Source: Cepaea nemoralis (taxonomy: Eukaryota > Mollusca > Gastropoda > Stylommatophora > Helicidae). Taken from it: a stretch of DNA of 64,000 nt. This document shows positions 8,635 to 47,600 of the stretch, piece after piece (the first letter of the stretch is position 1; every line of letters begins with the position of its first letter). Below the pieces are notes generated by a model. That model was not told the origin of the DNA. It did not search any database and saw only the letters and a list, made by a program, of their open reading frames with translations. The stretch spans positions 166,501-230,500 of the forward strand of contig JACEFZ010021368.1 in assembly GCA_014155875.1 (NCBI GenBank). Direction: 5' to 3'. Made by a program: the position numbers and the translations under genes.

Positions 8635-8640
8635 TCTGGC
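8635..8640. repeat. Left target site duplication of Polinton-like element (TCTGGC)
   Basis: TCTGGC lies directly left of the element's first base and TCTGGT directly right of its last (22389-22394), so five of six bases agree. Polintons generate 6-bp duplications. Confidence 0.75.
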
Positions 8641-8680
8641 AGTAGTATACAATGTGCAATTTACTTATCATTTTAGGACA

Positions 8681-8877
8681 CGTGTCCTTCGGCTGACGTC
8701 ATTTTTTACTATATAAAATGTCATGGTCCTATGCTCTGACGTCACCAAATTGTGTCCTTCGGCGACCGCCTTTTTTGAATTTTGGCGGTTATTTTCTTCG
8801 ATGACCACTTCCGGTTGACATCCAGTCTAGGGGCGGGGCGCCGGCGAGGCGGCGGCGGCGGTGGGGTCCCATAAAAT
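8681..8877 (+). promoter_or_regulatory. Left terminal promoter region: CRE/ATF, TATA, ETS, GC boxes
   Basis: Two perfect TGACGTCA sites (8694-8701 and 8737-8744) bracket a TATA box (TATATAAAA, 8710-8718). GTGTCCTTCGGC occurs twice (8682 and 8752). ACTTCCGG near 8806, GGGGCGGGG near 8830 and CATAAAAT at 8870-8877 follow, the last 35 nt before the first gene. The sites are seen; that they drive inward transcription is inference. Confidence 0.6.
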
Positions 8878-8879
8878 GC

Positions 8880-8909
8880 ATGGCTCGGGAGGTGGGTGAT
8901 TATTATTAG
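8880..8909 (+). CDS. 9-codon upstream ORF, left arm
   Basis: ATG at 8880 opens MAREVGDYY and a stop at 8907-8909, 2 nt before the ATPase ATG at 8912. The right arm has the same uORF with one synonymous change (CGG to CGA). It fits the tight stop-to-start spacing of the whole arm and could set reinitiation at the ATPase. Translation is not shown. Confidence 0.4.
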   Translation: MAREVGDYY

Positions 8910-8911
8910 TC

Positions 8912-9526
8912 ATGGATCCGAGATGGAAACATCCTTTTACGGCTTTGATTGCGGGGCCAACGGAGTCTGGAAAATCTGTCTTTGTGCAAAAGTTTCTTTC
9001 TCATTTATCAGACATGGTCGATCCGATTCCAGAGGAGATTATATGGTGCTACGGAGAATGGCAAGCCATGTATGAGACTATGAAAGGCATTACATTTAAC
9101 GAAGGCTTACCGGATATGGAACAGTGGACAGGTGATAGACGTCGTCTAGTGGTAATAGATGACCTAATGTCCGAGACAGATAATAGGGTGACTAAGCTTT
9201 TTACTAAAGGCAGTCATCATCGCAACCTTAGTGTTGTGTATATAGTCCAGAATCTCTTTGGGAAGAATAAAGAGCAAAGAACTATTAGTTTGAAATTCGC
9301 ATTACCTAGTGGTATTTAAAACACACATGACGGGTCTCAGATTACCAACCTGGCCAAACAGATGTATCCAGGCCGCGTGTCGTATGTCCAAGAGAGTTTT
9401 AAGGACGCGACAGCGGCTCCACAAGGTTATTTGCTTTTTGACCTTCGACAGGAAACACCGGATCAGCTACGCTTACGAAGTCATATTTTTCCAGATCAGC
9501 GTCAAGTCGTCTACGTGCCTAAATAA
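8912..9526 (+). pseudogene. A32/FtsK-like packaging ATPase, left copy (frameshifted)
   Basis: Counterpart of the intact right-arm gene. The P-loop reads GPTESGKS and the Walker B strand is RLVVIDDLMSE. A one-base gain in the A run at 9293-9295 and a one-base loss near 9316-9327 put about ten codons out of frame, and an in-frame stop falls at 9316-9319. Over the first 128 residues the two arms differ at about nine positions. Packaging ATPases of this family pump the genome into capsids. Confidence 0.9.
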
Positions 9527-9527
9527 A

Positions 9528-9850
9528 ATGTCCCACCGAATAAAACGTCACGGGGCCATGCTGCGCTTTCTGGGCGAGGCGAAGCCGACTGATGTGAAAG
9601 CCGTAATTAAATCAGCTTGCCCAGATCTCGTCCAATCAATTTGCGAGTGCTGTCACAATGTGTTAAAAGGTAATGTTCCACTGACACCGGTTCAGAAGAG
9701 ACGTTTGCAGCGACACAAGAGCAGTCTGAGAGCGGTCACTCGTAAGAAGCTATCTATCAAGAAGAGGAACAAATCTTACAGCAAGGTGGTTTCATAGGTG
9801 CTTTATTAATTCCTATTCTCAACGTACTGAAAGGCATCGTGGGCTTATAA
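9528..9850 (+). pseudogene. Small basic protein with hydrophobic C-terminus, left copy (frameshifted)
   Basis: Begins MSHRIKRHG one base after the ATPase stop. A one-base loss in the A run near 9768 shifts the frame, so the open frame ends at 9797 with a wrong tail and loses the Gly-rich hydrophobic end kept in the right arm. The stop of the ancestral frame overlaps the next ATG (TAATG, 9848-9852). Confidence 0.85.
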
Positions 9851-10281
9851 TGAAGAAAATGATCTTGATCGATTTCCGGATGCTGGAAAAACCTTATATA
9901 CCACCCGATACATTAACAAATAACTTGCGCGAGCTGGATCAGCAAATGCAACATGTCCTGGAGAACGAAGATCTACCACTTCGGGAAAAAGCCCGCGTTT
10001 ATCAACAGACTTTGCAGCAGTATCTGAATCGACTTGAGCAGTACAGACATAAACCACTAGGGACAGTGGATATCAAGGAACAAAAACCGGAAGTCAGTCC
10101 CGTATCGACTTCAGTCGCCGAGTCACCTCTTCAGCTGGCTACAAGTCAACCAGCACTTATTCAACCGAATAAAAGTCAAGTAGGCAAGTCCAAAGCAGTC
10201 GAGACACCACCTTACAAACTCAGGCGAAGCAAAAAGAAGAGGATACCTACACCCAAGTGGGAAAAATGGCCTCGCAATTAA
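9850..10281 (+). CDS. Conserved Polinton protein of unknown function, left copy
   Basis: A 143-residue open frame, same length as the right-arm copy. The N-terminal half (MKKMILID, then repeated Leu/Gln with charged residues) looks alpha-helical and possibly coiled-coil; the C-terminal half is Ser/Pro/Lys-rich and ends in KLRRSKKKRIPTPKW, a likely nuclear or DNA-binding basic patch. Proteins of this look occur in other Polintons next to the integrase. No function is assigned. The stop overlaps the integrase start by 16 nt. Confidence 0.75.
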   Translation: MKKMILIDFRMLEKPYIPPDTLTNNLRELDQQMQHVLENEDLPLREKARVYQQTLQQYLNRLEQYRHKPLGTVDIKEQKPEVSPVSTSVAESPLQLATSQPALIQPNKSQVGKSKAVETPPYKLRRSKKKRIPTPKWEKWPRN

Positions 10282-11296
10282 GAAAATATTACTACGATCC
10301 TCAGACACCCGGAGCCTACGGCGGAGCCGCCGCTCTAAAACGGAATACTAAATTGAAGAAGGTAGAGACTTCGCTACGCCATCAGGATACGTATACATTA
10401 CATAAACCGATCCGGCGTCGTTTCCAGAGACGTCAAACCATAACCGGTGGTATAAATCATCAATTTCAAGCCGATTTGATAGATATGAGAAAATTACAAC
10501 GATACAATGATGGGATGTCGTATCTAGTGACGTGTCTCGATGTTTTTAGTAAATACGCTTGGGCCATCCCAATCAAGAAGAAAACGGGGAAAGAGCTAAT
10601 GGACGCCGTGAGTAAAATATTTACCGATAGACAACCGATAAATTTTCAGACAATAAAGGATCGGAATTTGTCAACCGGACTTTTTTAAAATTTCTAAAAG
10701 ATCTAGGTGTGCATTTCTTCACTAGTGAGAATGAAGACATTAAAGCCGCCATAGTGGAAAGATTCAATCGAACCCTGAAAGAAAAAATATGGCGCTATTT
10801 CACAAGGACCGATAAACTTCGCTACGTCGACGTGATAGATAAACTGATCCGCAACTACAACGGGTCGTATCACAGAAGTATTCGTATGGCGCACACGCAA
10901 GTCAACTTTACGAATCAAAACGAGGTGTAGAATAACCTGTATCAGAAGACTTTCGACAGAAAAGTGTATTTTACACCCGGTGATCGAGTCAGACTGGCTC
11001 AACCAAAACAACCTTTTAAAAAGGGGTATACGCCCTCGTGGACAGAAGAACTATTTACCGTCAGTCGTATACATCAGACCAGTCCGGTCACGTATGTGCT
11101 AAAAGACGATTCGTGGGAAGAACTTCAAGGGTCATTCTACCGAGAAGAAATACAACTCGTCGGAGACAAGCAAGTGTATCGCGTCGAATCAGTCTTACAA
11201 GAACGACCCAGGCGAGGTGGTAAAGAGTACTTAGTCAAGTGGTTCGGCTATCCCAAGTCATTCAACAGTTGGGTCTCAGACCTAACCAGCTACTAA
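10266..11296 (+). pseudogene. Chromodomain integrase (F54H12.3-like), left copy (broken)
   Basis: A retroviral-type rve integrase core with C-terminal chromodomain, which inserts the linear element into host DNA. QADLIDM holds the first catalytic Asp, and the Glu segment VERFNRTLKE remains near 10755. An indel near 10651 destroys the frame just at the second catalytic Asp. A second lesion, TAG at 10928-10930, is shared with the right arm. The downstream part (10964-11296) keeps the SH3-like strand region and chromodomain (YLVKWFGYPKSFNSW). Confidence 0.92.
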
Positions 11297-11550
11297 TGGA
11301 AGAAACCAAAGTGGAAACTAACGCACAAAGTACCAGAGAAGGTGAAAAATATTCGCTCTGGTGCATATTTGGTCGTCGAGTGCCGCGACTAGAGATTGTC
11401 TTCTTCTGTCAACTGCTCGTTATATACACCGTCATCGGTGTATCACTATTCAATCTGTCTCGAGACAACGTCGACGCAGCCGAGGGCAAGTTGTGGATCG
11501 CTCCACTAAGCAGCTGTCTGGGTTACATGCTACCAAACCCGAAAATATGA
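11296..11550 (+). CDS. Small two-helix membrane protein, left copy
   Basis: 84 residues, open in both arms. A polar N-terminus leads to a membrane segment (about residues 33-55, LEIVFFCQLLVIYTVIGV) and a second hydrophobic stretch near the C-terminus (LSSCLGYMLPNP). Its ATG shares the A of the integrase stop (TAATG). Its own TGA lies in an ATGA overlap with the next gene. I do not recognise a function; a virion or membrane-entry role would be a guess. Confidence 0.7.
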   Translation: MEETKVETNAQSTREGEKYSLWCIFGRRVPRLEIVFFCQLLVIYTVIGVSLFNLSRDNVDAAEGKLWIAPLSSCLGYMLPNPKI

Positions 11551-12308
11551 GTTTCTAAGTGACATTACCGAGCAATGATTCGCCCAACATGTTTCCCAAG
11601 AACACTCCAGGTCACTATTTCGTCAAGTTACCGCAGACTATTGAGGTGAATCAACACTACGAAGTGGATCTGGCCGAAATTCAATTTCCCAACTACTACT
11701 GCAATGTGATAGAGCATGAAGTGTGGATAAGATACATCTCACCCACCAGAGGAAATTCCAGAAAACTGTGTCCCCCAGGCCTATACAGCTCACCAGTCGC
11801 GTTTATAGCGGAGCTGAATCGAATAATAAACGAGTCGGAGTTGGATGATCAGACGCGAGTCAGATTCTTTTTTGACAATACCTCAAAGAAAGTCATCGTG
11901 AAAATATTCGAACCGGGAGCCGTGGCTATGTTTAGCAAAAAGCTGAAAGAGATATTAGGACTTCACTCATCGAAGATATCACACACCAACCCATTGATGG
12001 AAAGCCAACTGGTGATAGACCTGAATAAAGATCTGCAAAATATCTACGTCTACTGCGATCTTATAGCGGCGAGACCAGTCGGAGACGTCATGGTCACATT
12101 ACTGAGGACGGTACCTATCATGAGTCAGCTGTCGGCTTCGGTGTAACGCGCCTATGACAAACCTCATTACGTGCCGCTGAGTCGGTACTCCTTCGACACG
12201 GTGGAAATCCTTTTAACCACCGATACGGGTACAAACGTCTCATTCACTTCCGGGACTTCAGTGCTGACGTTACATTTTCGAATTCGGAGGAGATCAGACC
12301 TAGAATAA
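11547..12308 (+). pseudogene. Penton-like minor capsid protein, left copy (broken)
   Basis: Polintons carry a single jelly-roll minor capsid protein, and this is its likely equivalent (253 codons between the shared start and stop). Motifs include YFVKLPQTIEV and LAEIQFPNYYCNV. Here codon 4 is TAA (11556-11558) and a further TAA lies at 12144-12146; the right arm has sense codons at both. The frame between is otherwise open. The terminal TAA overlaps the next ATG. Assignment as penton is from genomic position and general resemblance. Confidence 0.75.
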
Positions 12309-12757
12309 TGAAATGCGTGGCGCTACGTCGAAATCCCAGACCCTATGAGGACTTTTACTGTAATAAAGTTGGACATGGCATGCCGGTCTTTGTGGGTGGT
12401 CGGAGTCAGAGAGGTCGCGGCATCGGCAGCTTCTTCAGTGGACTCGGTCGCACGATTCTACCCTGGTTAAAGACCGGTGGTAAGGCCCTACTCAGAGAAG
12501 GTCTCGGGACGGGTCTGCGAGTGGCCCAAGGTGCTTTGGCTGGTAGAAATGTTGGGGATTCCTTCAAAGAACACGCCAAGCAAGCTGGTCAGCGTCTACT
12601 GCAAGGAGCTGTTTACCACGTTAGCCAATCAGGTAGCGGTATCAGATGAAAGAGACGCGCAGCGCCACCTGGGGAGCCCACTAAACGTATAAAACTAACC
12701 CCCACACATAGTCGAGCTCATAAGAAGAAACACCTGCACTCGGATATCTTTGCATAA
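12308..12757 (+). pseudogene. Gly-rich basic virion-type protein, left copy (premature stop)
   Basis: Starts MKCVALRRNPRPYEDFYC, then a Gly/Arg-rich amphipathic stretch (GRGIGSFFSGLGRTILPW) and a basic tail. A TGA at 12647-12649 replaces a sense codon of the right arm, cutting the basic C-terminus. It looks like adenovirus pVI/pX-type minor proteins in composition, but homology is not established. The ancestral stop overlaps the capsid ATG (TAATG, 12755-12759). Confidence 0.75.
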
Positions 12758-13394
12758 TGGCTCTTATTCATCCTCACTCATGTGAGTGTCTTCATTCTGG
12801 TCTGGATCTATTTAGTGTACCACCCACGCAGACCGCCGTGGAAAGGGTCAATTTCTTGAGATACATCCTTTAGCTTCGCTAGCCCCCGGCGCACCTACAG
12901 AATTTGCCATCTCTGGTGCCAGTGAAGAGTATCTGGATCTGTTTAACACTTTCTTACACATCAGAGCTAAAGTCACACTACCCAACGGTGACAAACTACC
13001 ACCCACAGCCGAGGTCGCTCCCGTCAACTATTACATGCACACTTTATTTTCTCAAGTGGACGTCTCACTCAACGACACGCTAATCACCCCCAGTGAAAAT
13101 ACGTATCCGTATAGAGCCTACTTGGAAGCAACTTTGAACCATGGGGAAGAAGCCAAAAAGAGTCATCTCTCAGCCGCCCTCTATTACTATGACACGGCTA
13201 AATTCCTCGATGACACGCAAGGCTAAAACAACAAGGGGCTAAGAACACGACGTCAACTAGCCAGTGAGAGTCAAGAAATAGATATGATGGGTCGATTACA
13301 CGACAACATTTTTGTGCAAGATCCCTACATGATAAACGGTGTGGATGTGAAAATTAAGCTGACTCCATTCAAGGCCATTGTTAAACAAATGTGA
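12757..13394 (+). pseudogene. Major capsid protein N-terminal part (F54H12.2-like), left copy
   Basis: Same fragment as the right arm, with a one-base loss near 12845 and TAA at 13224-13226. The sequence breaks off after the KLTP region directly into tandem repeats that supply the stop. Double jelly-roll capsid proteins of this group are roughly twice as long, so the second jelly roll is missing. Confidence 0.88.
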
Positions 13395-14455
13395 AAAGGT
13401 TAGTCGAATTTCAAACCAAACTTATAAAAAATCTCAGTCAAACATATGAAAAGTAGGAAAATTTGTTAACCAAACGTGAAAAGTTTGGCCAACTGTCACC
13501 CAAACTTATGAAAAGTGGGAAATTTTGTTGTCCAGCTGTGAAAAGTTTGACCAAATTTCACCCAAACTTATGAAAAGTAGGAAACTTTGTTAACCAAAAG
13601 GCGAAAAGTTTGGTCAAAGTTCAACCACAAGCATCAACAAGTAGGAACATTTGTTAACGAAAGTGAAAAGGTTAGCCAAAGTTCAAACAAACTCATAAAA
13701 ATTAGGAGACTTTGTTAACCAAATGGCAAAAATCTTGCCCAAGTAATAAAATTTGTTAGCCAGAGTGTGAAAATTTTGGCTACATTTCAACCAGATTTAG
13801 AAAAAAGCTCACCCAATGTTATGAAAAGTAGGAAAATTTGTTAATCAAATGCGAAAAGGTTAGACGAATTTCAAACCACACTTATAAAAAGCTCAGTCAA
13901 ACATATAAAAAGTAGGAACATTTTTTAACCGAACGTGAAAAGTTTGGCCAACTGTCAACCAACCCTATGAAAAGTGGGAAATTTTGTTGTCCAGATGTGA
14001 AAAGTGTGACCACACTTCACCCGAACTTATGAAAAGTAGGAAACTTTGTTAACCAAAGCGCAAAAAGCTTGGTCAAGTAAGAAAATGAGTTAACCATATG
14101 TGAAAAAGTTAACCAAATTTCAAACCAAACATATAAAATTCTCAGTCAAACATATGAAAAATAGGAAGAATTTGTTAACCAAACTTGAAAAGTTTGGTCA
14201 AAAACTTATGAAAAGTAGGCGATTTTGTTGTCCAGATGTGAAAATTGTGACCAAATTTCACCCATACTTATGAAAAGTAGGAAACTTTGTTAACCAAATG
14301 GTAAAAACCTTGGCCAAGTAAGAAAATGTGTTAACCAAAGGTGAAAATTTTTGGACAAGTTTGACCAAATTTCAAACAAAACTCATAAAAACTAGGAAAC
14401 TTTGTTAACCAAATGTGAAAAGTTTGACCAAACTTCATCAAAACTTATAAGATAT
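13376..14455. repeat. Tandem repeat array, left arm
   Basis: Degenerate units of about 60 nt built around CTTATGAAAAGTAGGAAA and TTTGTTAACCAAA. Sub-types recur at about 460 nt (compare 13380 and 13842), so a higher-order unit is present about twice here and about once in the right arm. The array starts inside the last codons of the truncated capsid gene. No coding potential. Confidence 0.92.
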
Positions 14456-14530
14456 TCGCCTGTCCCCTAGGCAAACAACAGTTGTATTTCAGAAAATTAA
14501 ACGTATCTTATGTAATAAGTCGCTATAATT

Positions 14531-16800
14531 AGTTAGTTAGTTAGTCTTTCCTCTTGAGCCTAAGGCGGCGCATAGGGCAGAAGTCCTGTCTCTCCATGCT
14601 TGGCGGTTCGCTGCTACCTGTTGTAGATCTTGGATATTTACTTGGCCATTGAATGAGCCTTCTCTAATGATGGTTCTACGCAGGGTCTCTCTTGGTCTTC
14701 CCCGTTTTCTTTTCACTACCGGTGACCATATGAGGGCTTGGTAGGGGAGTCTTGTCTTGTCCATTCTGAGTACATGGCCGATGTAGTTCCAACGGCGTCG
14801 TCTTATGAAATTGGATACTGTATCTTGCTTAGTCTCTTGTCTTATTTGCGAATTGGTTCTGAAGTCTGTCCAGTGGATGTTTAGAAGTCTTCTAAGACAT
14901 TTGTTCTCAAAATTGTCTAATTTTTTTTATCTAAAGCTACCGTTGATTTCAAACTTTCACATCCATACGTTAACACTGGAATCACACAAGAGTTGAAGAT
15001 TTTAAGTTGTGTGTGTTTGCTGAGTGTCTTTGACTTCCAGATGTTTGACAGTTTATTGAAGGCACTAGATGCCAGTGCGATTCTAGATGATATTTCTGGT
15101 GTTGAGTCCCGTGTAGATGTCATTTTGCTTCCTAGGTATGTGAAGCTGTTGACTTTTTCAAGAACGTAGCTGTTCAATTTGGTGTCATCTGAACTGTTGG
15201 TAAGATCAATAGTCTTTGTTTTTGTGGTGTTAATTTGGAGACCAATTTGCCCTGAAACATTTTGGAGGTGGTTTTTTTTTCTCTTGGGCATCCGGGTGTG
15301 TTGAACTCAAAAGCACTAAGTCGTCGGCAAAGTCCAGGTCTTCTAGAGTTTTGTCAACCCAATGGATGCCCATATTTGTGTTGTTTGTGCATTTGCGCAT
15401 GACCCAATCGATAGCTATTCCAAAAAGCATCGATGATAAGACACAACCCTGTTTCACTCCTGTTTCGACTGAGAACCAGTCAGAATTGCCTGTTTCTGTT
15501 CTTACGCAGCAACGTGTCTCTTTGTAGAAAGATTTTATGACGTTGGTATATTTGGTAGGAAAACCATAGATGTTAAGTAGATTCCAAAGTGAAGGACGGT
15601 GGATGCTGTCGAAGGCTTTTTGAAAGTCGACAAAGTTGGTGATTAATTTCGACTGGAATTATACGGAGTCTTCAATGATTATTCTGAGGGTGAAAATGTG
15701 GTCTATGCATGACCGTTTTGGTCTGAAGCCTGCTTGTTCTTCTCTGAGCCTTTCATCTATCGCCTTTGTCAACATGCTACAAAAAAGTTTTCCTGGTACT
15801 GATAATAGAGTGATACCACGCCAATTATTGCAATCAGACATATCGCCCTTTTAGGCAGTTTGAAAATTACACCATCTTTCGACTGTTGTGGTGGGGATTC
15901 GCTTTGCCAGATATCATTGATCAGCTGTAACAAACGTTGTAAGTCGTTCTCATCTGCTGCTTTGAGCTTTTCTCCTGAGATTTCATCTTCACCAACAGCT
16001 TTGTTGTTCTTAATTTTTTTTGTTATGGCTGCTTTAATCTCTTCCATTGTGAATGAATCGCTGGAGACATCTAGTGGGGGCATAGTAATTTCTCCATCCA
16101 GGTTCGGAAAAGTGTCAGGCTGCGGTCTATTTAATATTTCTTTGAAATGTTCTGCCCATAGTTGCTTTTGAAGGTCATCGGATAACAGTTGATTGCCTTG
16201 TTTGTCTTTGATGGGTATATTTGGTGTAGGTGAGTGGTTGCATAGTTGCTTCATGATATGGAATACGGCTCTGTTGTTTCCAGTTCTGGCAGCTGCTTCG
16301 GCGTCGGAGGCCAGGCTGTGAATAAAGTTCTGTTTGTCTTTCCGTGCGCTTGATTTCACCTCGTTATCCAACATAGAGTATTTTTGCTTATGGGTTTCAT
16401 ATGTAGATGTGTCTTTTGCAGAAAGAAGTGTTAGTTTTGCTTGTTTTCTTTCTTGAATCTTCGTCCAGGTGTTATCGCGTAGCCACTTCTTCTTCTGTCT
16501 TTGTACGTAGCCGACTGTGTTTGTTGCAGCATTTAGCAAGGTATTTTTTAGGAAATTCCAATTTTCTTCAATGTTGTTTTTAATATTCGCATTGCTCGAT
16601 ATACTTTCTTTGTTAGCATAGATGCTTTGTACCTCTGAATTGAATGCGAGTTGGTATTCTTTAGTCAGTATGGACTGTGAGTTTAGTTTCTTAATTCTGG
16701 GTAATCTGTGCAGAGTCTTGAGCTTTATTTTTAGTTTGGCAATGCAGAGATTGTGATCACTGCCAGCATCTGCAACTCTGTAGGCTATAACTTCTTGTAC
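14531..16800 (-). mobile_element. 5'-truncated LINE between the palindrome arms
   Basis: Minus-strand LINE with (CTAA)n tail at 14531-14545. It begins within the endonuclease (VADAGSDHNLCIAK), then a linker (16539 down), RT motifs (NWRGITLLS, KQGCVLSS, LDFADDLVLLSS near 15330) and a C-terminus RKRGRPRETLRR. Several frameshifts and stops make it a pseudogene. It is a secondary insertion: the arms stop at its edges. No clear target duplication was found, so insertion may have been accompanied by a small deletion. Confidence 0.9.
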
Positions 16801-16920
16801 TTATGAACGGAAATTAACAATTAAATTTCCACATTAAACATTCAAGTTGGAAACAAAAAGAGAAATTTAATTGTTAATTTTTTGTACAATTTTATTGTTG
16901 AAATTTTATTTTGTTCCTTC
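16801..16920. other. Central spacer with small perfect-type hairpin
   Basis: 16810-16829 and 16862-16881 are inverted repeats (19 of 20 bases) around a 32-nt loop. This is probably the original turn of the palindrome, now separated from the left arm by the LINE. Confidence 0.7.
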
Positions 16921-16989
16921 AATTATAGTGACTTATTACATAAGATACGTTTAATTTTCTGAAATACAACTGTTGTTTGCCTAGGGGAC

Positions 16990-17612
16990 AGGCGAATATC
17001 TTATAAGTTTCGATGAAGTTTGGTCAAACTTTTCACATTTGGTTAACAAAGTTTCCTAGCTTTTATGAGTATTGTTTGAAATTTGGTCAAACTTGTCCAA
17101 AAATTTTCACCTTTGGTTAACACATTTTCTTACTTGGCCAAGGTTTTTACCATTTGGTTAACAAAGTTTCCTACTTTTCATAAGTATGGGTGAAATTTGG
17201 TCTCACTTTTCACATCTGGACAACAAAATCTCCCACTTTTCATAAGTTTTTGGCCAAACTTGTTCAAGTTTGGTTAACAAATTCTTCCTATTTTTCATAT
17301 GTTTGACTAAGATTTGTATATGTTTGGTTTGAAATTTGGTTAACTTTTTCACATATGGTTAACACATTTTCTTACTTGACCAAACTTTTCGCCTTTTGGT
17401 TAATAAAGTTTCCTACTTTTCATAAGTTCGGGTGAAGTGTGGTCAAACTTTTCACAGCTGGACAACAAAATTTCCCACTTTTCATAAGTTTGGGTGACAG
17501 TTGGACAAACTTTTCACGTTTGGTTAACAAATTTTCCTACCTTTCATGTTTCACTGAGATTTTTTATAAGTTTGGTTTGAAATTCGACTAACCTTTTCAC
17601 ATTTGGTTAACA
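16990..17612. repeat. Tandem repeat array, right arm
   Basis: Inverted equivalent of the left array, about 620 bp, with the same unit types and junction to the capsid gene. It lacks roughly one higher-order unit of the left array. Confidence 0.92.
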
Positions 17613-18235
17613 ATGGCCTTGGATGGAGTCAGCTTAATTTTCACATCCACACCGTTTATCGTGTAGCGGTCTTGCACACAAATTTCGGCGTGTAATCGAC
17701 CCATCATATCTATTTCTTGACTCTCACTGGCTAGTTGACGTCGTGTTCTTAGCCCCTTGTTGTTTTCGCCTTGCGTGTCATCGAGGAATTTAGCCGTGTC
17801 ATAGTAATAGAGGGCGGCTGAGAGATGATTCTTTTTGGCTTCTTCCCCATGGTTCAAAGTTGCTTCCAAGTAGGCTCTATAGGGATACGTATTTTCACTG
17901 GGGGTGATTAGCGTGTCGTTGAGTGAGACGTCCACTTGAGAAAATAAACTGTGCATGTAATAGTTGACGGGAGCGACCTCGGCTGTGGGTGGTAGTTTGT
18001 CATCGTTGGGTAGTGTGACTTTAGCTCTGATGTGTAAGAAAGTGTTAAACAGATCCAGATACTCTTCACTGGCACCAGAGATGGCAAATTCTGTAGGTGC
18101 GCCGGGGGCTATCGAAGCTAAAGGATGTATCTCCAGAAATTGACCCTTTTCCACGGCGGTCTGCGTGGGTGGTACACTAAATAGATCCAGACCAGAATGA
18201 AGACACTCACATGAATGAGGATGAATCAGAGCCAT
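17597..18235 (-). CDS. Major capsid protein, N-terminal part (F54H12.2-like), right copy
   Basis: A 212-codon open frame resembling the N-terminal jelly roll of Polinton major capsid proteins (GLDLFSVPPTQTAVE; NYYMHSLFSQVDVSLN; TYPYRAYLEATLN; MMGRLHAEI). After KIKLTPSKAIV it enters the tandem array, which supplies the stop. The second half, including the second jelly roll, is absent, so no functional capsid is expected. Its ATG at 18235 shares the A of the preceding stop (TAATG). Confidence 0.88.
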   Translation of the reverse strand: MALIHPHSCECLHSGLDLFSVPPTQTAVEKGQFLEIHPLASIAPGAPTEFAISGASEEYLDLFNTFLHIRAKVTLPNDDKLPPTAEVAPVNYYMHSLFSQVDVSLNDTLITPSENTYPYRAYLEATLNHGEEAKKNHLSAALYYYDTAKFLDDTQGENNKGLRTRRQLASESQEIDMMGRLHAEICVQDRYTINGVDVKIKLTPSKAIVNQM

Positions 18236-18684
18236 TATGCAAAGATATCCGAGTGCTGGTGTTTCTTCTTATGAGCTCGACTATGTGTGGGGGCTAGTTT
18301 TATACGTTTACTGGGCTCCCCAGGTGGCGCTGCGCGTCTCTTTCTTCTGATACCGCTACCTGATTGGCTAACGTGGTTAACAGCTCCTTGCAGTAGACGC
18401 TGACCAGCTTGTTTGGCGTGTTCTTTGAAGGAATCCCCAACATGTCTACCAGCCAAAGCATCTTGGGCCACTCGCAGACCCGTCCCGAGACCTTCTCTGA
18501 GTAGGGCCTTACCACCGGTCTTTAACCAGGGTAGAATCGTGCGACCGAGTCCACTGAAGAAGCTGCCGATGCCGCGACCTCTCTGACTCCGACCACCCAC
18601 AAAGACCGGCATGCCATGTCCAGCTTGATTACAGTAAAAGTCCTCATAGGGTCTGGGATTTCGACGTAGCGCCACGTATTTCAT
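18235..18684 (-). CDS. Gly-rich basic virion-type protein, right copy (intact)
   Basis: 149 residues. N-terminus MKYVALRRNPRPYEDFYC, then a Gly/Arg-rich amphipathic stretch, a helical middle (FKEHAKQAGQRLLQGAV) and a strongly basic C-terminus (RRKRRAAPPGEPSKRIKL; HKKKHQHS). Composition and position suggest a DNA- or membrane-interacting minor virion protein comparable to adenovirus pVI or pX. Homology is unproven. Start is the ATG overlapping the penton-like gene's stop. Confidence 0.7.
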   Translation of the reverse strand: MKYVALRRNPRPYEDFYCNQAGHGMPVFVGGRSQRGRGIGSFFSGLGRTILPWLKTGGKALLREGLGTGLRVAQDALAGRHVGDSFKEHAKQAGQRLLQGAVNHVSQSGSGIRRKRRAAPPGEPSKRIKLAPTHSRAHKKKHQHSDIFA

Positions 18685-19444
18685 TATTCTAGGTCTGATC
18701 TCCTCCGAATTCGAAAATGTAACGTCAGCACTAAAGTCCCGGAAGTGAATGAGACGTTTGTACACGTATCGGTGGTTAAAAGGATTTCCACCGTGTCGAA
18801 GGAGTACCGACTCAGCGGCACGTAATGAGGTTTGTCATAGGCGCGATACACCGAAGCCGACAGCTGACTAATGATAGGTGCCGTCCTCAGTAATGGGACC
18901 ATGATGTCTCCGACTAGTCTCGCCGCTATAATATCGCAGTAGACGTAGATACTTTGCAGATCGTTATTCAGGTCTATCACCAGTTGGCCTTCCATCAATG
19001 GGTTGGTGTGTGATATCTTCGATGAGTGAAGTCCTAATATCTCTTTAAGCTTTTCGCTAAACATAGCCACGGCCCCCGGTTCGAATATTTTCACGATGAC
19101 TTACTTTGAGGTATTGTCGAAAAAGAATCTGACTCGCGTCTGATCATCCACCTCCGACTCTTTTATTATTCGATTCAGCTCCGCTATAAACGCGGCTGGT
19201 GAGCTGTATAGGCCTGGGGGACACAGTTTTTGGAATTTCCTCTGGTGGGTGAGATGTATCTTATCCACACTTCATGCTCTACCACATTGCAGTAGTAGTT
19301 GGGAAATTGAATTTCGGCCAGACCCACTTCGTAGTGTTGATTCACCTCAATAGTCTGCGGTAACTTGACGAAATAGTGACCTGGAGTGTTCTTGGGAAAC
19401 ATGTTGGGCGAAGCATTGCTCGGTAATGTCACGTAGAAACTCAT
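18684..19444 (-). pseudogene. Penton-like minor capsid protein, right copy (broken)
   Basis: Opens MSFYVTLPSN and keeps the YFVKLPQTIEV and LAEIQFPNYYCNV motifs. A one-base loss near 19227-19231 shifts the frame and TAA at 19101-19103 adds a stop, both private to this arm. From 19094 down the frame is open again (KIFEPGAVAMFS onward) to the shared stop. Lesions in the two arms fall at different places. Confidence 0.78.
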
Positions 19445-19695
19445 ATTTTCGGGTTTGGTAGCATGTAACCCAGACAGCTGCTTAGTAGAGCGATCCACAA
19501 CTTGCCCTCGGCTGCGTCGACGTTGTCTCGAGACAGATTGAATAGTGATACACCGATGACGGTGTATATAACGAGCAGTTGACAGAAGAAGACAATCTCT
19601 AGTCGCGGCACTCGACGACCAAACATGCACCAGACCGAATTTTTTTCACCTTCTGTAGTATTTTGTGCGTTAGTTTCCACTTTGGTTTCTTCCAT
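19441..19695 (-). CDS. Small two-helix membrane protein, right copy
   Basis: 84 residues, same as the left-arm copy with a handful of substitutions, both hydrophobic segments kept. Start ATG at 19695 overlaps the integrase stop; its TGA lies in ATGA at 19441-19444. Confidence 0.7.
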   Translation of the reverse strand: MEETKVETNAQNTTEGEKNSVWCMFGRRVPRLEIVFFCQLLVIYTVIGVSLFNLSRDNVDAAEGKLWIALLSSCLGYMLPNPKI

Positions 19696-20725
19696 TAGTA
19701 GCTGGTTAGGTCTGAGACCCAACTGTTGAATGACTTAGGATAGCCGAACCACTTGACTAAGTACTCTTTACCACCTCGCCTGTGTCGTTCTTGTAAGACT
19801 GATTCGACGCCATACACTTGCTTGTCTCCGATGAGTTGTATTTCTTCTCGGTAGAATGACCCTTGAAATTCTTCCCACGAATCGTCTTTTAGCACATACG
19901 TGACCGGACTGGTCTGATGTATACGACTGACGGTAAATAGTTCTTCTGTCCACGAGGGCGTATACCCCTTTTTAAAAGGTTGTTTTGGTTGAGCAAGTCT
20001 GACTCGATCACCGGGTGTAAAATACACTTTTCTGTCGAAAGTCTTCTGATACAGGTTATTCTACACCTCGTTTTGATTCGTAAAGTTGCCTTGCGTGGGC
20101 GCCATACGAATACTTCTGTGATACGACCCGTTGTAGTTGCGGATCAGTTTATCTATCACGTCGACGTAGCGAAGTTTATTGGTCTTGGTGAAATAGCGCC
20201 ACATGTTTTCTTTCAGGGTTCGATTGAATCTTTCCACTATGGCGGCTTTAATGTCTTCATTCTCACTAGTGAAGAAATGCACACCTAGATCTTTTAGAAA
20301 TTTAAAAAAAAAGTCCGGTTGACAAATTCCGATCCTTTATCGGTCTGAAAATGTATCGGTTGTCTATCGGTAAATATTTTACTCACGGCGTCCACTAGCT
20401 CTTTCCCCGTTTTCTTCTTGATTGGGATGGCCCAAGCGTATTTACTAAAAACATCGAGACACGTCACTAGATACATCCCATCATTGTATCGTTGTAATTT
20501 TCTCATATCTATCAAATCGGCTAGAAATTGATGATTTATACCACCGGATATGGTTTGACGTCTCTGGAAACGACTTCGGATCGGTTTATGTAATGTATAC
20601 GTATCCTGATGGCGTAGCGAAGTCTCTACCTTCTTCAATTTAGTATTCCGTTTTAGAGCGGTGGCTCCGCCGTAGGCTCCGGGTTTCTGAGGATCGTAGT
20701 AATATTTTCTTAATTGCGAGGCCAT
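19695..20725 (-). pseudogene. Chromodomain integrase (F54H12.3-like), right copy (broken)
   Basis: From ATG 20725 (MASQLRKYYYDP), the rve core shows ADLIDM and TDKGSEF, the first and second catalytic Asp, and VERFNRTLKE with the Glu. A 9-base A run at 20304-20312 (plus strand) shifts the frame after the second Asp; TAG at 20061-20063 is the stop shared with the left arm. The chromodomain (EYLVKWFGYPKSFNSW) remains at 19700-19800. Neither arm encodes a complete integrase. Confidence 0.93.
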
Positions 20726-21141
20726 TCTTCCCACTTGGGTGTAGGTATCCTCTTCTTTTTGCTTCGCCTGAGTTTGTAAGGTGGTGTCTCGACTGCTTTG
20801 GACTTGACTACTTGACTTTTAGTCGGTTGAATAAGTGCTGGTTTACATGTAGCCAGCTGAAGAGGTGACTCGGCGACTGAAGTCGATACGAGGCTGACTT
20901 CGGGTTTTTGTTCCTTGATGTCCACTGTCCCTAGTGGTTTATGTCTGTACTGCTCAAGTCGATTCAGATACTGATGCAAAGTCTGTTGATAAACGCGGGC
21001 TTTTTCCCGAAGTGGTAGATCTTCGTTCTCCATGACATGTTGCATTTGCTGATCCAGGTCCCGCAAGCTATCTCTTAATGTATCGGGTGGTATATAAGGT
21101 TTTTCCAGCATCCGGGGATCGATCAAGATCATTTTCTTCAT
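20710..21141 (-). CDS. Conserved Polinton protein of unknown function, right copy
   Basis: 143 residues, intact, same architecture as the left copy: helical N-terminal half, Ser/Pro-rich linker, basic KLRRSKKKRIPTPKW near the C-terminus. ATG at 21141 shares the A of the preceding TAA. The 3' end overlaps the integrase start by 16 nt. Confidence 0.75.
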   Translation of the reverse strand: MKKMILIDPRMLEKPYIPPDTLRDSLRDLDQQMQHVMENEDLPLREKARVYQQTLHQYLNRLEQYRHKPLGTVDIKEQKPEVSLVSTSVAESPLQLATCKPALIQPTKSQVVKSKAVETPPYKLRRSKKKRIPTPKWEEWPRN

Positions 21142-21464
21142 TATAAGCCCACGATGCCTTTCAGTACGTTGAGAATAGGACATAATAAAGCACCTATGAA
21201 ACCACCTTGCTGTAAGATTTGTTTCCTCTTCTTGATAGATAGCTTCTTACGAGTGAGCGCTCTCAGACTGTTCTTGTGTCGCTGCAAACGTCTCTTCTGA
21301 ACCGGTGTCAGTGGAACATTACCTTTTAACACATTGTGACAGCACTCGCAAATTGATTGGACGAGATCTGGGGAAGCTGATTTAATTACGGCTTTCACAT
21401 CAGTCGGCTTCGCCTCGCCCAGAAAGCGCAGCATGGCCCCGTGACTTTTTATTCGGTGGGACAT
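21141..21464 (-). CDS. Small basic protein with hydrophobic Gly-rich C-terminus, right copy (intact)
   Basis: 107 residues from MSHRIKSHG. The first two thirds are basic with a Cys pair (SICECCHNV) and an Arg/Lys cluster (QKRRLQRHK); the end is hydrophobic and Gly-rich (QQGGFIGALLCPILNVLK), resembling membrane-active or core proteins of related viruses. Small proteins of this design sit beside the ATPase in other Polinton-like elements. The longer open frame upstream (to 21554) reads out of frame through the ATPase and is rejected. Confidence 0.75.
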   Translation of the reverse strand: MSHRIKSHGAMLRFLGEAKPTDVKAVIKSASPDLVQSICECCHNVLKGNVPLTPVQKRRLQRHKNSLRALTRKKLSIKKRKQILQQGGFIGALLCPILNVLKGIVGL

Positions 21465-21468
21465 TTTA

Positions 21469-22080
21469 TTAAGGCACGTAGACGACTTGACGCTGATCTG
21501 GAAAAATATGACTTCGTAAGCGGTGCTGATCCGGTGTTTCCTGTCGAAGGTCAAAAAGCAAATAACCGTGTGGAGCCACTGTCGCGTCCTTCAAACTCTC
21601 TTGGACATACGACACGCGGCCTGGATACATCTGTTTGGCCAGGTTGGTAATCTGAGACCCGTCACGTGGGTTTTTAAATACCACTAGGTAATGCGAATTC
21701 AAACTAATAGTTCTTTGCTCTTTATTCTTCCCAAAGAGATTCTGGACTATATACACAACACTAAGGTTGCGATGATGACTGCCTTTAGTAAAAAGCTTAG
21801 TCACCCTATCATCTGTCTCGGACATTAGGTCATCTATTACCACTAGACGACGTCTATCACCTGTACACTGTTCTATATCCGGTAAGCCTTCGTTAAGTGT
21901 AATGCCTTTCATAGTCTCATACATGGATTGCCATTCTCCGTAGCACCATATAATCTCCTCTGGAATCGGATCGACCATGTCTGATAAATGAGAAATAAAC
22001 TTTTGCACAAAGACAGATTTTCCACACCCCGTTGGCCCCGCAATCAAAGCCGTAAAAGAATGTTTCCATCTCGGATCCAT
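21469..22080 (-). CDS. A32/FtsK-HerA-like genome-packaging ATPase, right copy (intact)
   Basis: 203 residues. Walker A is AGPTGCGKSVFV (residues 14-25), Walker B is RLVVIDDLMSE (about 78-88), followed by a sensor-like region SVVYIVQNLF. Length and motifs fit the virus packaging ATPase family shared by Polintons, adenovirus-like and nucleocytoplasmic viruses. ATG at 22080 follows the uORF stop by 2 nt. It is first in the arm, nearest the terminus. Confidence 0.93.
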   Translation of the reverse strand: MDPRWKHSFTALIAGPTGCGKSVFVQKFISHLSDMVDPIPEEIIWCYGEWQSMYETMKGITLNEGLPDIEQCTGDRRRLVVIDDLMSETDDRVTKLFTKGSHHRNLSVVYIVQNLFGKNKEQRTISLNSHYLVVFKNPRDGSQITNLAKQMYPGRVSYVQESLKDATVAPHGYLLFDLRQETPDQHRLRSHIFPDQRQVVYVP

Positions 22081-22082
22081 GA

Positions 22083-22112
22083 CTAATAATAATCACCCAC
22101 CTCTCGAGCCAT
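22083..22112 (-). CDS. 9-codon upstream ORF, right arm
   Basis: Same nine residues as the left arm with one synonymous difference, and the same 2-nt gap to the ATPase ATG. Conservation alone is weak evidence because the surrounding DNA is also similar. Confidence 0.4.
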   Translation of the reverse strand: MAREVGDYY

Positions 22113-22114
22113 GT

Positions 22115-22348
22115 ATTTTATGGGACTTCACCGCCGCCGCCACCGCCACCGCCGCCGTCGCCGCCGCCGCCACGCCGCCTCGCCGCCGCACCGCCCCTAG
22201 ACCGGAAGTGACAACCGGAAGTGGTCATCGAAGACAATAACTGCTAAAATTCAAAAAAGGCGGTCGCCGAAGGACACAATTTGGTGACGTCAGAGCATAG
22301 GACCATGACATTTTATTTAGTAGAAAATGACGTCAGCCGAAGGACACG
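22115..22348 (-). promoter_or_regulatory. Right terminal promoter region
   Basis: Mirror of the left one: TGACGTCA at 22285-22292 and 22328-22335, two ACTTCCGG sites near 22200-22225, CATAAAAT before the first gene, and both GTGTCCTTCGGC boxes. The terminal TATA box is weakened to TAAATAAAA, and the GC box is mutated to GGGGCGGTG. Confidence 0.6.
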
Positions 22349-22388
22349 TGTCCTAAAATGATAAGTAAATTGCACATTGTATACTACT

Positions 22389-22394
22389 TCTGGT
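22389..22394. repeat. Right target site duplication (TCTGGT)
   Basis: Matches TCTGGC at 8635-8640 in five of six bases. Confidence 0.75.
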
Positions 22395-22600
22395 GAATAC
22401 ATGTGTCTTGTCCACTATTGATAACCTTTATTGGAATCTCATCCTTACCTGCAGCCTTGTCAGATGCAAGTTCATTAATAGCTCACTTAACTTCTCTTAC
22501 GATGAGAAGTGTGTGGAGGTTGTCACTTGTTGGCAGGGTCTCTATGACGTTGAGTGCATCATCCGCAAGTTTGGTCTCGCTTGTCATACCTAAAGACAGT
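22395..22600 (-). mobile_element. LINE RT fragment flanking the Polinton
   Basis: Closely resembles 45865-46045 of the RTE LINE further right (the linker just before the RT fingers). Similarity appears to begin within the 6-bp duplication itself, suggesting the Polinton landed in or at the edge of an older LINE copy. Confidence 0.7.
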
Positions 22601-44624: not shown

Positions 44625-47600
44625 GACCACTCAGTCCCCTTGATGATATATACATTATAAATATTTTTTTAAAAAGATTTTTCCAATACTTCAGTATTTG
44701 TGATTTTGTCTTGCAACTTAATACCAAGAATTCTTCGCAGACACCGCATATGAAAGCTGTTTAAACGTTTCTCTTGGTGTGAGTTGTCCAGGTGTCACTG
44801 CCATAAAGAAGAATACTAAGGACACAAGCTTAATAGACAAGGACTTTTGTTTTGGCAGTAAGCTTCCTGTTCTCCCAGACTATTTTTCTTAACCTGTTCA
44901 TTGTTTTTGCTGCCTTACCAAACCGGATGTTGATTTCTGATCTAGGGATAATTTGCTATTTACCACTGATCCTAGATATGTAAAATGGTCTACCATCTCT
45001 AGTTCGGCGTCGTCAATAAAGATTGATGGTACCCCATGTGCACCTTGTGACATAATCTGTGTCTTCTTTTTGCTAATTGTTAAACCAAATTCAGAACAAG
45101 CATTGGAGAATGCAGATAGTAGACATTGCAATTCTTCCTCAGAGTGGGTCGTAACTGCAGCATCATCTGCAAAATGCAACTCTCTGATCAGTACCCTCCT
45201 AATTTTGGTCTTGGCCTTCAATCTCTGAGCATTGTAGAGGCCGCCATCTGAGCGTGAGTGAATGTATATACCACCATCCTGATCACGAAAGGCATATTTC
45301 AGTAGAAGTGAAAAGTATATTCCAAAGAGGGTGGGAGCTAGTACACAACCTTGCTTAACTCCACTCTTGATTTCAAACTCTTCAGAAGTTGCACCATCAA
45401 ACTTGATTATACCCTTCATGCCTGTGTGGAACGATTCCACAATGGACAGAAGAGTTGGTGGGCAGCCAATCTTCTTTAGTGCCTTGAACAGACCCTCACG
45501 ACTGACCAAATCAAATGCCTTTGTGAGGTCGATGAAGGCAATAAACAGTGGTTGATTCTGTTCACGGCATTTTTCTTGCATTTGTCGCAATGAGAATATC
45601 ATATCAATGGTAGACCGGTTCTGTCGAAAGCCACACTGTGATTCGGGGTAGACTTGATCTCCTAGGACTTGAAGTCTGCGCAGAACAATTCTGGCAAATA
45701 CTTTTCCAACAATACACAGAAGTGAGATACCCCTATAGTTGTTGCAGTCGCTCCGATCGCCCTTGTTCTTGTACAGTGTTATGATGCTTGAATTTTTAAA
45801 ATCCTGTGGAACTTGTCCTTCTCGCCAGCATAGCTCTATTAGCTGGTGGATCTGTAGAGTGAGTGTGTCTTGCCCACTCCTGATAACCTCTATTGGAATC
45901 CCATCCTTACCTGGAGCCTTGCCAGATGCAAGTTCATTTATAGCACACTTAACTTCTGTTATGGTAGGAAGTGTGTCCAGGTGGTCAAGAGTTGGTAGAG
46001 CCTCTATGGCGTTGAGGGCATCATCCGCTAGTTTGGTCTCACTTGAGTAAAGCTCCAAATAGTGCTCTACCCATCTGTCCATCTGCTGTTTCTTATCAGT
46101 TATGATTTCTCCAGTCAAGGTTTTCAATGGTGCACTTCTTTTGATCATTGGACCACAGGCTTTCTTTATTCCTTCATACATGCTTCTGATGTTTCCCTTA
46201 TCACTTGCGATTTGAATGGACTCACATAATCATTTGCACACTGCCTGGCAGCCTTTTGCACATCCTTCCTAGCTTGTTTTAGCTCACTCAGAGTGTTACG
46301 CGTTGGTCTTTCCTTGTTTCTTAAGAGAGCTATCTTCTTCTAATCAATCAAGGGCTGCAGAGACTGGCTGTTTGCCGCAAACCAGTCCTGCCTCTTATGA
46401 TCCACAGTGCCGTAAACCCCTACGGCAGTTTTATAAAGAGTTTCCTTAAGTTGACCCCACTTTTCATTTACTGTAAATTTTCTGGTGTGTCAGTGAATGC
46501 GTTTTCAAGTTGCTGTTGAAACTGAAAGCACTTTCAGGATCGTGAGTGTTAATAATATTAATCCTGGGGCTAGATTTGTGTTTAGCTGTGTAGATTCTCT
46601 TTGGTTCAGTCTAACCCTTGCAACAACCAAAGAATGATCCGTATCACAGTCAGCACTATGGTAACTTCAAGTCAATGATATATGGTTCAGATGTTGTCTC
46701 CGTGTGATGATGAAGTCCAGCTGGTGCCAATGGCTGGATCTTGGATGTTTCCATGTGACCTTATGCAGCTCTTTTGTTTTAAAAAAGGAGTTTGTAATAC
46801 ATAGGTCATTTCTGGTGCAATGCTCCAGCAGCCTTTGCCCATTTTCATTCATGCGGCCGATGTTGTATTTTCTAAGGCTCACTGGCTATGAACTCGAGTC
46901 CTTGCCCACATGAGCATTGAAATCACCGATCATATAAATGTAGTCAGATTTTGGAACTGCCTTGATCACGGAGTCTAACTCTTCATAGAACGAATCCTTC
47001 ACATCATCAGAGGAATCGAGTGTCAGTGCATATGCAGTAATAATGGTGGCAAAACCACAAGAGGTTGCCAAGCGCAGGGATAATAGTCTTTCATTTCCTC
47101 CTGCTGGAATTTCAATCATTCCCAGTAGCGAATTCTTCACTGCAAAGCCCACACCGTGTTGCCTTTTTCCTTCCAAAAAAAGGTGTAATTGTTTTCCCTG
47201 AGTGACCCTTCCTCAGCGAGGCGAGTCTCCTGCAGGCCAGCAATATCAATGTTAAGACGATTGAGTTCGGCATCAATCACAGCCGTTTTTCTCACATCGT
47301 CAATATTGGTCAAGTCAGTGGAAATTCCTGGACACATGGTTCTCACGTTCCAAGTTGCAAGCCGTAGCTTGAGGTGTCTATTTGCTCTTTTTATTGTACC
47401 TGGTGCATTGGTGTTACAGCCTGCTATTCAAATTTTGTCTAGCCCCAAGCACCCATTGAAGCAGACAGGCTGTGGCGTATCAGCACCCAATTGGCCGGGG
47501 GCTGCCCAGGTTGAGGCAGGCGGTAGTTGATCAGTGACACCTGTAGGTGTCTCCCACCGTCAGAGGCAACGCGTGGCGCCCCATGTCTACGCCAATTGAC

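Follow-up and report, generated by a model that had tools for sequence, protein, structure and literature searches.

How could a transposable element come to carry one of its ends twice, as mirror images joined at the centre, and was such a structure inserted as it stands? The question is raised by positions 8641-22388 of a 64,000-nucleotide stretch of the Cepaea nemoralis genome (GCA_014155875.1, contig JACEFZ010021368.1, positions 166,501 to 230,500 of the forward strand), a stretch that is called the window here and supplies all positions without a contig name. A first-pass annotation, made from the letters alone, had described it as a Polinton-like element in snap-back form. According to the anatomy of the element and of other mirror-image copies in the same genome, it is a Polinton derivative that probably arose by fold-back during replication, at the hairpin of a foldback repeat, and was then inserted as one piece.

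Arms, ends and centre of the element

Comparison of the window with itself delimits two inverted arms, 8641-14530 (5,890 bp) and 16921-22388 (5,468 bp), which are ~97% identical, confirming the arms of about 5.9 and 5.5 kb with the same inward gene order in the first-pass annotation, the coordinates of which prove exact. First-order Markov shuffling of the element (20 replicates) yielded inverted matches of 13-27 bp at best. When 8641-14545 is aligned with 16906-22388, 171 of 5,439 columns differ, a count slightly inflated because the innermost columns past 14530 are non-homologous, and there are 13 indels, the biggest being 459 bp within a tandem array and 35 bp adjoining a CGG tract. An assembly hairpin could be suspected from the almost perfect arms of one palindrome in a second lineage (C9089, see below), but the window arms are ~3% divergent and their arrays unequal by 459 bp, their flanks differ, and other mirror copies bear target duplications of their own. 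On arm divergence and target duplications this explanation was set aside as very improbable, and the first-pass annotation had likewise argued against it.

The element ends are AGTAGTATAC...GTATACTACT, i.e. AGTAGT...ACTACT, an (AGT)2 motif of the Polinton type, and the immediate flanks TCTGGC and TCTGGT form a 6-bp target duplication with five of the six bases agreeing. No match between the left and right flanks was found by flank-to-flank comparison. Because of the (AGT)2 ends, the near-perfect duplication and the unrelated flanks, the whole palindrome looks like the inserted unit, and 8641-22388 was likely inserted as a single piece, in line with the first-pass claim of a Polinton derivative integrated as a palindrome. 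An inverted duplication of the host chromosome around a Polinton fossil, independent of the element ends, could draw on the repeat sequence in the arms that is found elsewhere without a Polinton; however, the mirror symmetry reaches precisely to the two Polinton termini and no further, the flanks not matching each other, which makes such an event hardly credible.

A query with the capsid segment found 38 other loci (best 40 of 1,546 candidates scored), all 38 of which end at query base 535-545, with 34 at 536, i.e. window 13377, and none of which has an inverted partner. Since all of them stop there, the sequence inward of 13377 is judged foreign to the Polinton, and the capsid/foldback junction, present in both arms, private to the window copy. 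The query 13905-14530 gave 150 matches (best 40 of 2,878 candidates scored), and inverted copies facing each other, 150-157 bp apart, occur at six loci (C9453, C4879, C3924, C4306, C12905 and C507), the second copy being matched over only 81 bp at C12905 and 41 bp at C507. The C9453 foldback centre is 96.9% identical to the window over 16811-16970 and 98% over 14481-14530. With independent copies, facing inverted arms and a short centre, the palindrome centre is by sequence comparison an independent foldback (inverted-repeat) element within the capsid gene. The inner arm end had been considered as a captured piece of a long interspersed nuclear element (LINE), an assignment rejected because the search with 13905-14530 places it in the foldback family. 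A LINE-type fragment does lie in the loop and fills most of it, recognized by Pfam DUF6451 at 14917-15291 and by similarity (35% identity) to a frame on C215 that encodes a reverse transcriptase, its right edge being set by comparison with the C9453 foldback centre. The first-pass claim of a wholly palindromic coding region thus holds for the Polinton parts, which are mirrored, but not for the inner 1.15 kb of the arms, which is foldback repeat instead of Polinton coding sequence.

Gene order and inward orientation are identical in both arms. Listed from the outer end towards the centre, the contents of each arm are an adenovirus IVa2-like ATPase, two small open reading frames (ORFs), an rve integrase, a hydrophobic small ORF, a minor-capsid-like piece, a small basic ORF and a capsid-like piece broken off at about residue 206. 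Pfam matches to the adenovirus IVa2-like ATPase and the rve integrase were obtained among the scanned ORFs (seven of the nine right-arm ORFs, two from the centre and one from a flank), and neither PolB nor a protease was found among them, in agreement with the absence first proposed. The window element has AGT-type ends with a 6-bp duplication, an rve integrase and a packaging ATPase, and is without short terminal repeats around a single gene set; because no PolB was found in the scanned ORFs, it is best classed, from its sequence, as a Polinton derivative and not as a complete Polinton.

Relatives of the window ATPase reach 84% identity, and many of those listed bear Pfam Pox_A32; searches of viral contigs with this ATPase, singly and as an alignment, returned no relatives. 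The capsid piece has annotated relatives in Pomacea, Littorina and Plakobranchus at 60-68% identity and a lancelet relative at 51%, and the capsid-like protein has no Pfam match. Its possible fold was assessed on a longer relative, as the window holds only the first part of the gene: the model of that relative (predicted local distance difference test, pLDDT, 64) matches best an unnamed bracovirus protein and next the major capsid models of mavirus, virophages and large DNA viruses, all at modest template modelling (TM) scores of 0.3-0.5. The model of the window piece itself was too poor (pLDDT 48) and was not used. Its best match among solved structures, a bornavirus matrix-type protein (E 0.01), is weak and was taken as chance. 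The ORF at 18684-19064, without a database match, is presumably a minor capsid piece.

Between the arms, 13.5 synonymous and 88.5 non-synonymous changes were counted (pS 0.016, pN 0.030, pN/pS 1.9), and because this ratio is not below 1, the arms diverged free of coding constraint. These data also bear on the alternative of two independent head-to-head insertions of Polintons, which would account for an own terminus in each arm. However, the capsid/foldback junction is common to both arms and occurs at none of the 38 other scored loci, no target duplication was seen between the arms, and the arm differences show no coding constraint. The shared private junction contradicts this alternative, which the first-pass annotation had kept in view, and it was set aside as the least probable reading of all.

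The coordinates of the element and of the other mirror-image copies are collected in Table 1. Outside the element, the window also holds an inverted pair at 933-2034 and 46377-47459 (1.1 kb, 89.5% identity) and a dispersed repeat at 22402-22583 (other copy 45864-46045, 85% identity), which starts 14 bp beyond the right end.

Table 1. Features of the window element and mirror-image copies on other contigs (contig positions for the latter)
Feature	Position	Strand	Remark
Left target-duplication copy	8635-8640	.	TCTGGC
Left arm, Polinton part	8641-13377	+	terminus AGTAGT, then genes
Left arm, foldback repeat	13378-14530	+	array of ~62 bp units and inner end
LINE-type reverse transcriptase fragment in foldback loop	14531-16810	-	right edge approximate
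Rest of foldback centre	16811-16920	.	missing left of LINE fragment; 16811-16970 matches C9453
Right arm, foldback repeat	16921-17612	-	array 459 bp shorter than left
Right arm, Polinton part	17613-22388	-	mirror of 8641-13377
Capsid-like gene, first part	17597-18235	-	continues into foldback repeat
Small basic ORF, 149 aa	18235-18684	-	no Pfam match
Minor-capsid-like piece	18684-19064	-	no Pfam match
ORF, 84 aa, hydrophobic stretch	19441-19695	-	judged by eye
Integrase piece, rve domain	20294-20725	-	Pfam, E 3.4e-9
Small ORF, 157 aa	20710-21183	-	no family in Pfam
ATPase, 203 aa, adenovirus IVa2-like	21469-22080	-	Pfam
Right target-duplication copy	22389-22394	.	TCTGGT
Mirror copy C14551	92661-96397		3.7 kb; TAAGTC, perfect 6 bp
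Mirror copy C5442	677913-684212		6.3 kb; CACTAA, perfect 6 bp
Mirror copy C2925	6649-9373		2.7 kb; CACACA, perfect 6 bp
PolB palindrome C9089	265995-278174		self-identity 99.6%; 5-bp duplication ATACA
PolB palindrome C21220	36607-49520		self-identity 98.9%; 5-bp duplication GGGTG
PolB palindrome C19005	337818-351599		self-identity 93.7%; 5-bp duplication CCCTA

Mirror-image copies in two Polinton lineages

A search of the same genome for more palindromes and for Polintons with PolB, as suggested with the first-pass annotation, found both. With the ATPase end as query (8641-9300; best 40 of 2,134 candidates scored), 40 long matches were obtained on 36 contigs, and inward-facing mirror pairs were present on four of these 36, namely the window's own contig, C14551, C5442 and C2925, giving mirror pairs of 13.7, 6.3, 3.7 and 2.7 kb in the window lineage. 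The turns were read through at two of them. In C14551 the forward part extends to arm base 11381 and contains bases 9795-10061 twice, after which the sequence turns to inverted 9362 and returns to the terminus; in C2925 the forward part lacks 9608-9669, extends to ~10304 and turns to ~9738. Little or no sequence is common to both sides of these turns (about one base in C14551), and both copies read as asymmetric copy-backs that turn elsewhere than the window copy.

Over 554 columns of the stem, arms within a locus (window, C14551, C2925) differ by 2.9-4.0% and arms from different loci by 7.2-9.9%, and at 13, 15 or 9 sites the two arms of a locus agree with each other against the remaining four sequences. 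This grouping would fit separate events, or arms kept alike at each locus. The termini of C14551, C5442 and C2925 differ past AGTAGT; several subfamilies of the window Polinton lineage therefore seem to have formed palindromes.

A second set of palindromes, with PolB in both arms, came from a PolB (PF03175) search in which 91 of 297 candidates were scored and 95 matches obtained. C9089 and C19005 were chosen for their inward-facing PolB pairs, and C21220 was taken without that knowledge. A PolB frame of ~1,400 aa is unbroken in at least one arm of each palindrome and in both arms of C9089. When the outer 5 kb are compared between loci, C9089 and C21220 arms are only 0.08-0.34% divergent, and C19005 arms differ by 6.6-7.6% from both. 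Given the near-identity of C9089 and C21220 across loci with their own duplications, the PolB palindrome itself seems to have moved.

Ordinary Polintons with a related PolB (79% DNA identity over 3.2-3.4 kb) were found at C10418, C25607 and C24359, where the terminal repeats measure 123-168 bp and the target duplications 5 bp; C10418 and C24359 have a double-jelly-roll capsid gene, and the integrase match of C10418 (E 3.9e-6) lies under the Pfam cut-off. Because these Polintons share only 20-24% ATPase identity with the window element, and the duplication is 5 bp versus 6 bp, the PolB palindromes and their relatives are assigned to a lineage other than the window's. Thus, as far as sequence relationships indicate, mirror-image Polintons arose at least twice, with the PolB end kept once and the ATPase-capsid end kept once.

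Several further observations were made on PolB-bearing elements. A box of ~62 bp, corresponding to terminal-repeat bases ~39-101 of the three ordinary Polintons, flanks the centre of the C9089 and C21220 palindromes and is not at their outer ends. Two PolB proteins of the second lineage (L031:4798-9024 and L016:3950-7966) have a weak Endonuclease_7 match ahead of the polymerase domain (E 0.001 and 1.3e-4, under the Pfam cut-off). In another Polinton-like region, C215:355001-385000, PolB is 1,241 aa long, the integrase shares 43% identity with the window's, and inverted repeats of ~380 bp lie near 356.2 and 372.8 kb.

Fold-back in replication or repair of a gap

When a linear genome is copied from its ends by protein-primed strand displacement, single strands are exposed. 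If such a strand turned onto itself and were elongated along its own sequence, the product would bear the same terminus twice, being symmetric if the turn is at a hairpin and asymmetric if it is elsewhere; in both cases it would retain two termini, as an integrase requires. The window copy turns at the foldback hairpin, and C14551 and C2925 turn at the sites described above. In the course of events that we favour, a foldback repeat would first have entered the capsid gene of a parent copy; the junction is private and the repeat family independent, and the foldback would have preceded the palindrome. During protein-primed strand-displacement synthesis, the new strand would have copied one end and the foldback, the arms of which would then have paired so that the strand was extended on itself to the terminus, and the other end, presumably with PolB, would have been lost. 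The product, with a Polinton terminus at both ends, would have been inserted with a 6-bp duplication; its ends and near-perfect duplication are those seen in the window, and a Polinton integrase may have supplied the activity, whichever element it came from. The arms then decayed without coding constraint, and the LINE-type fragment now present in the loop would have entered at some point in this last phase.

The anatomy of the window copy could also be produced by repair of a gap after insertion, in which a break cost an ordinary Polinton, whose capsid gene held the foldback, its far half. Using the shared terminal repeat, the remaining right terminus would then have copied the left half, and the repair would have finished within the foldback arms in the window copy and by end joining in C14551 and C2925. 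By this route the target duplications and the mirrored arms would be explained, as would the missing PolB end and the central foldback, and the turns of C14551 and C2925 are as end joining would leave them. However, four loci in the window lineage would all have had to be repaired by this inverted route, and in the second lineage PolB palindromes occupy three loci that differ in their duplications, two of the palindromes being nearly identical, as if the palindrome had moved as a unit. Gap repair is thus a live rival for the window copy, albeit an unlikely one, and fold-back in replication is favoured because the PolB palindromes, one unit at three sites, tip the balance. The snap-back form named in the first-pass annotation stands insofar as one end is doubled with a terminus at both ends; replication is its probable maker, although gap repair would give the same anatomy at a single locus.

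Several points weigh against the replication fold-back. The target duplication of the window element carries one mismatch, that of C2925 sits within a CA repeat and that of C19005 falls in satellite, so that the latter two are weak; the arm pN/pS exceeds the neutral value of 1; and the DNA searches scored the best 40 candidates each. Furthermore, we infer the replication origin from an assembly, which can show no intermediate, and, for each locus of the window lineage taken alone, gap repair would give identical anatomy.

The free linear, virus-like replicating stage of animal Polintons has been inferred mainly from their genes. If replication fold-back is correct, mirror copies of either end with clean duplications would be fossils of Polinton replication and its errors, countable in any long-read genome, and hairpin RNA of virus-like origin would have a natural source in mirror-image Polintons. 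In the PolB lineage, palindromes of 12-14 kb stand at several sites of a single genome. Our results raise the possibility, which we put forward tentatively and with less confidence than the fold-back itself, that snap-back Polintons form a heritable mobile class in which either end is folded back and two good termini allow replication and insertion as units, and that palindromes with PolB in both arms are self-copying replicons that borrow only the integrase, a chromosomal counterpart of snapback virus genomes of symmetric and asymmetric form.

Comparison with known systems

Among mobile elements, foldback-type transposons such as Galileo have very long inverted repeats with tandem arrays and are likely kin in form to the central repeat, but they are without virus genes and without replication of their own. 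Among protein-primed linear DNAs, palindromic defective adenovirus genomes have one end doubled; those are free viral DNA in culture, whereas the Polinton palindromes are inserted copies. Vertebrate Mavericks have (AGT)2 ends, 6-bp duplications and intact terminal repeats of 46-1,447 bp, and they share with the window element the ATPase and integrase genes; to their capsid gene corresponds the capsid-like piece of the window (PMC8097293). Intact vertebrate Polintons have one gene set with PolB, whereas the window element has a repeat of 5.5-5.9 kb with one end doubled, and no PolB among its scanned ORFs (PMC8097293).

A palindromic Polinton was not reported in the titles and abstract openings listed from the open-licence literature, a body of text that leaves most subscription journals outside. 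A close parallel is adeno-associated virus (AAV), which makes symmetric and asymmetric snapback genomes from both genome ends (PMC8235507). As in AAV, either end is mirror-doubled in Polintons of this genome, and symmetric and asymmetric forms with a loop and variable turns occur (window versus C14551 and C2925), each with one end mirrored and a terminus at both ends; AAV, however, is a parvovirus with snapback genomes in packaged particles, whereas here a Polinton stands in the chromosome with target duplications (PMC8235507). Snap-back genomes are thus already known, and it is the inserted, inherited Polinton form that appears to be new.

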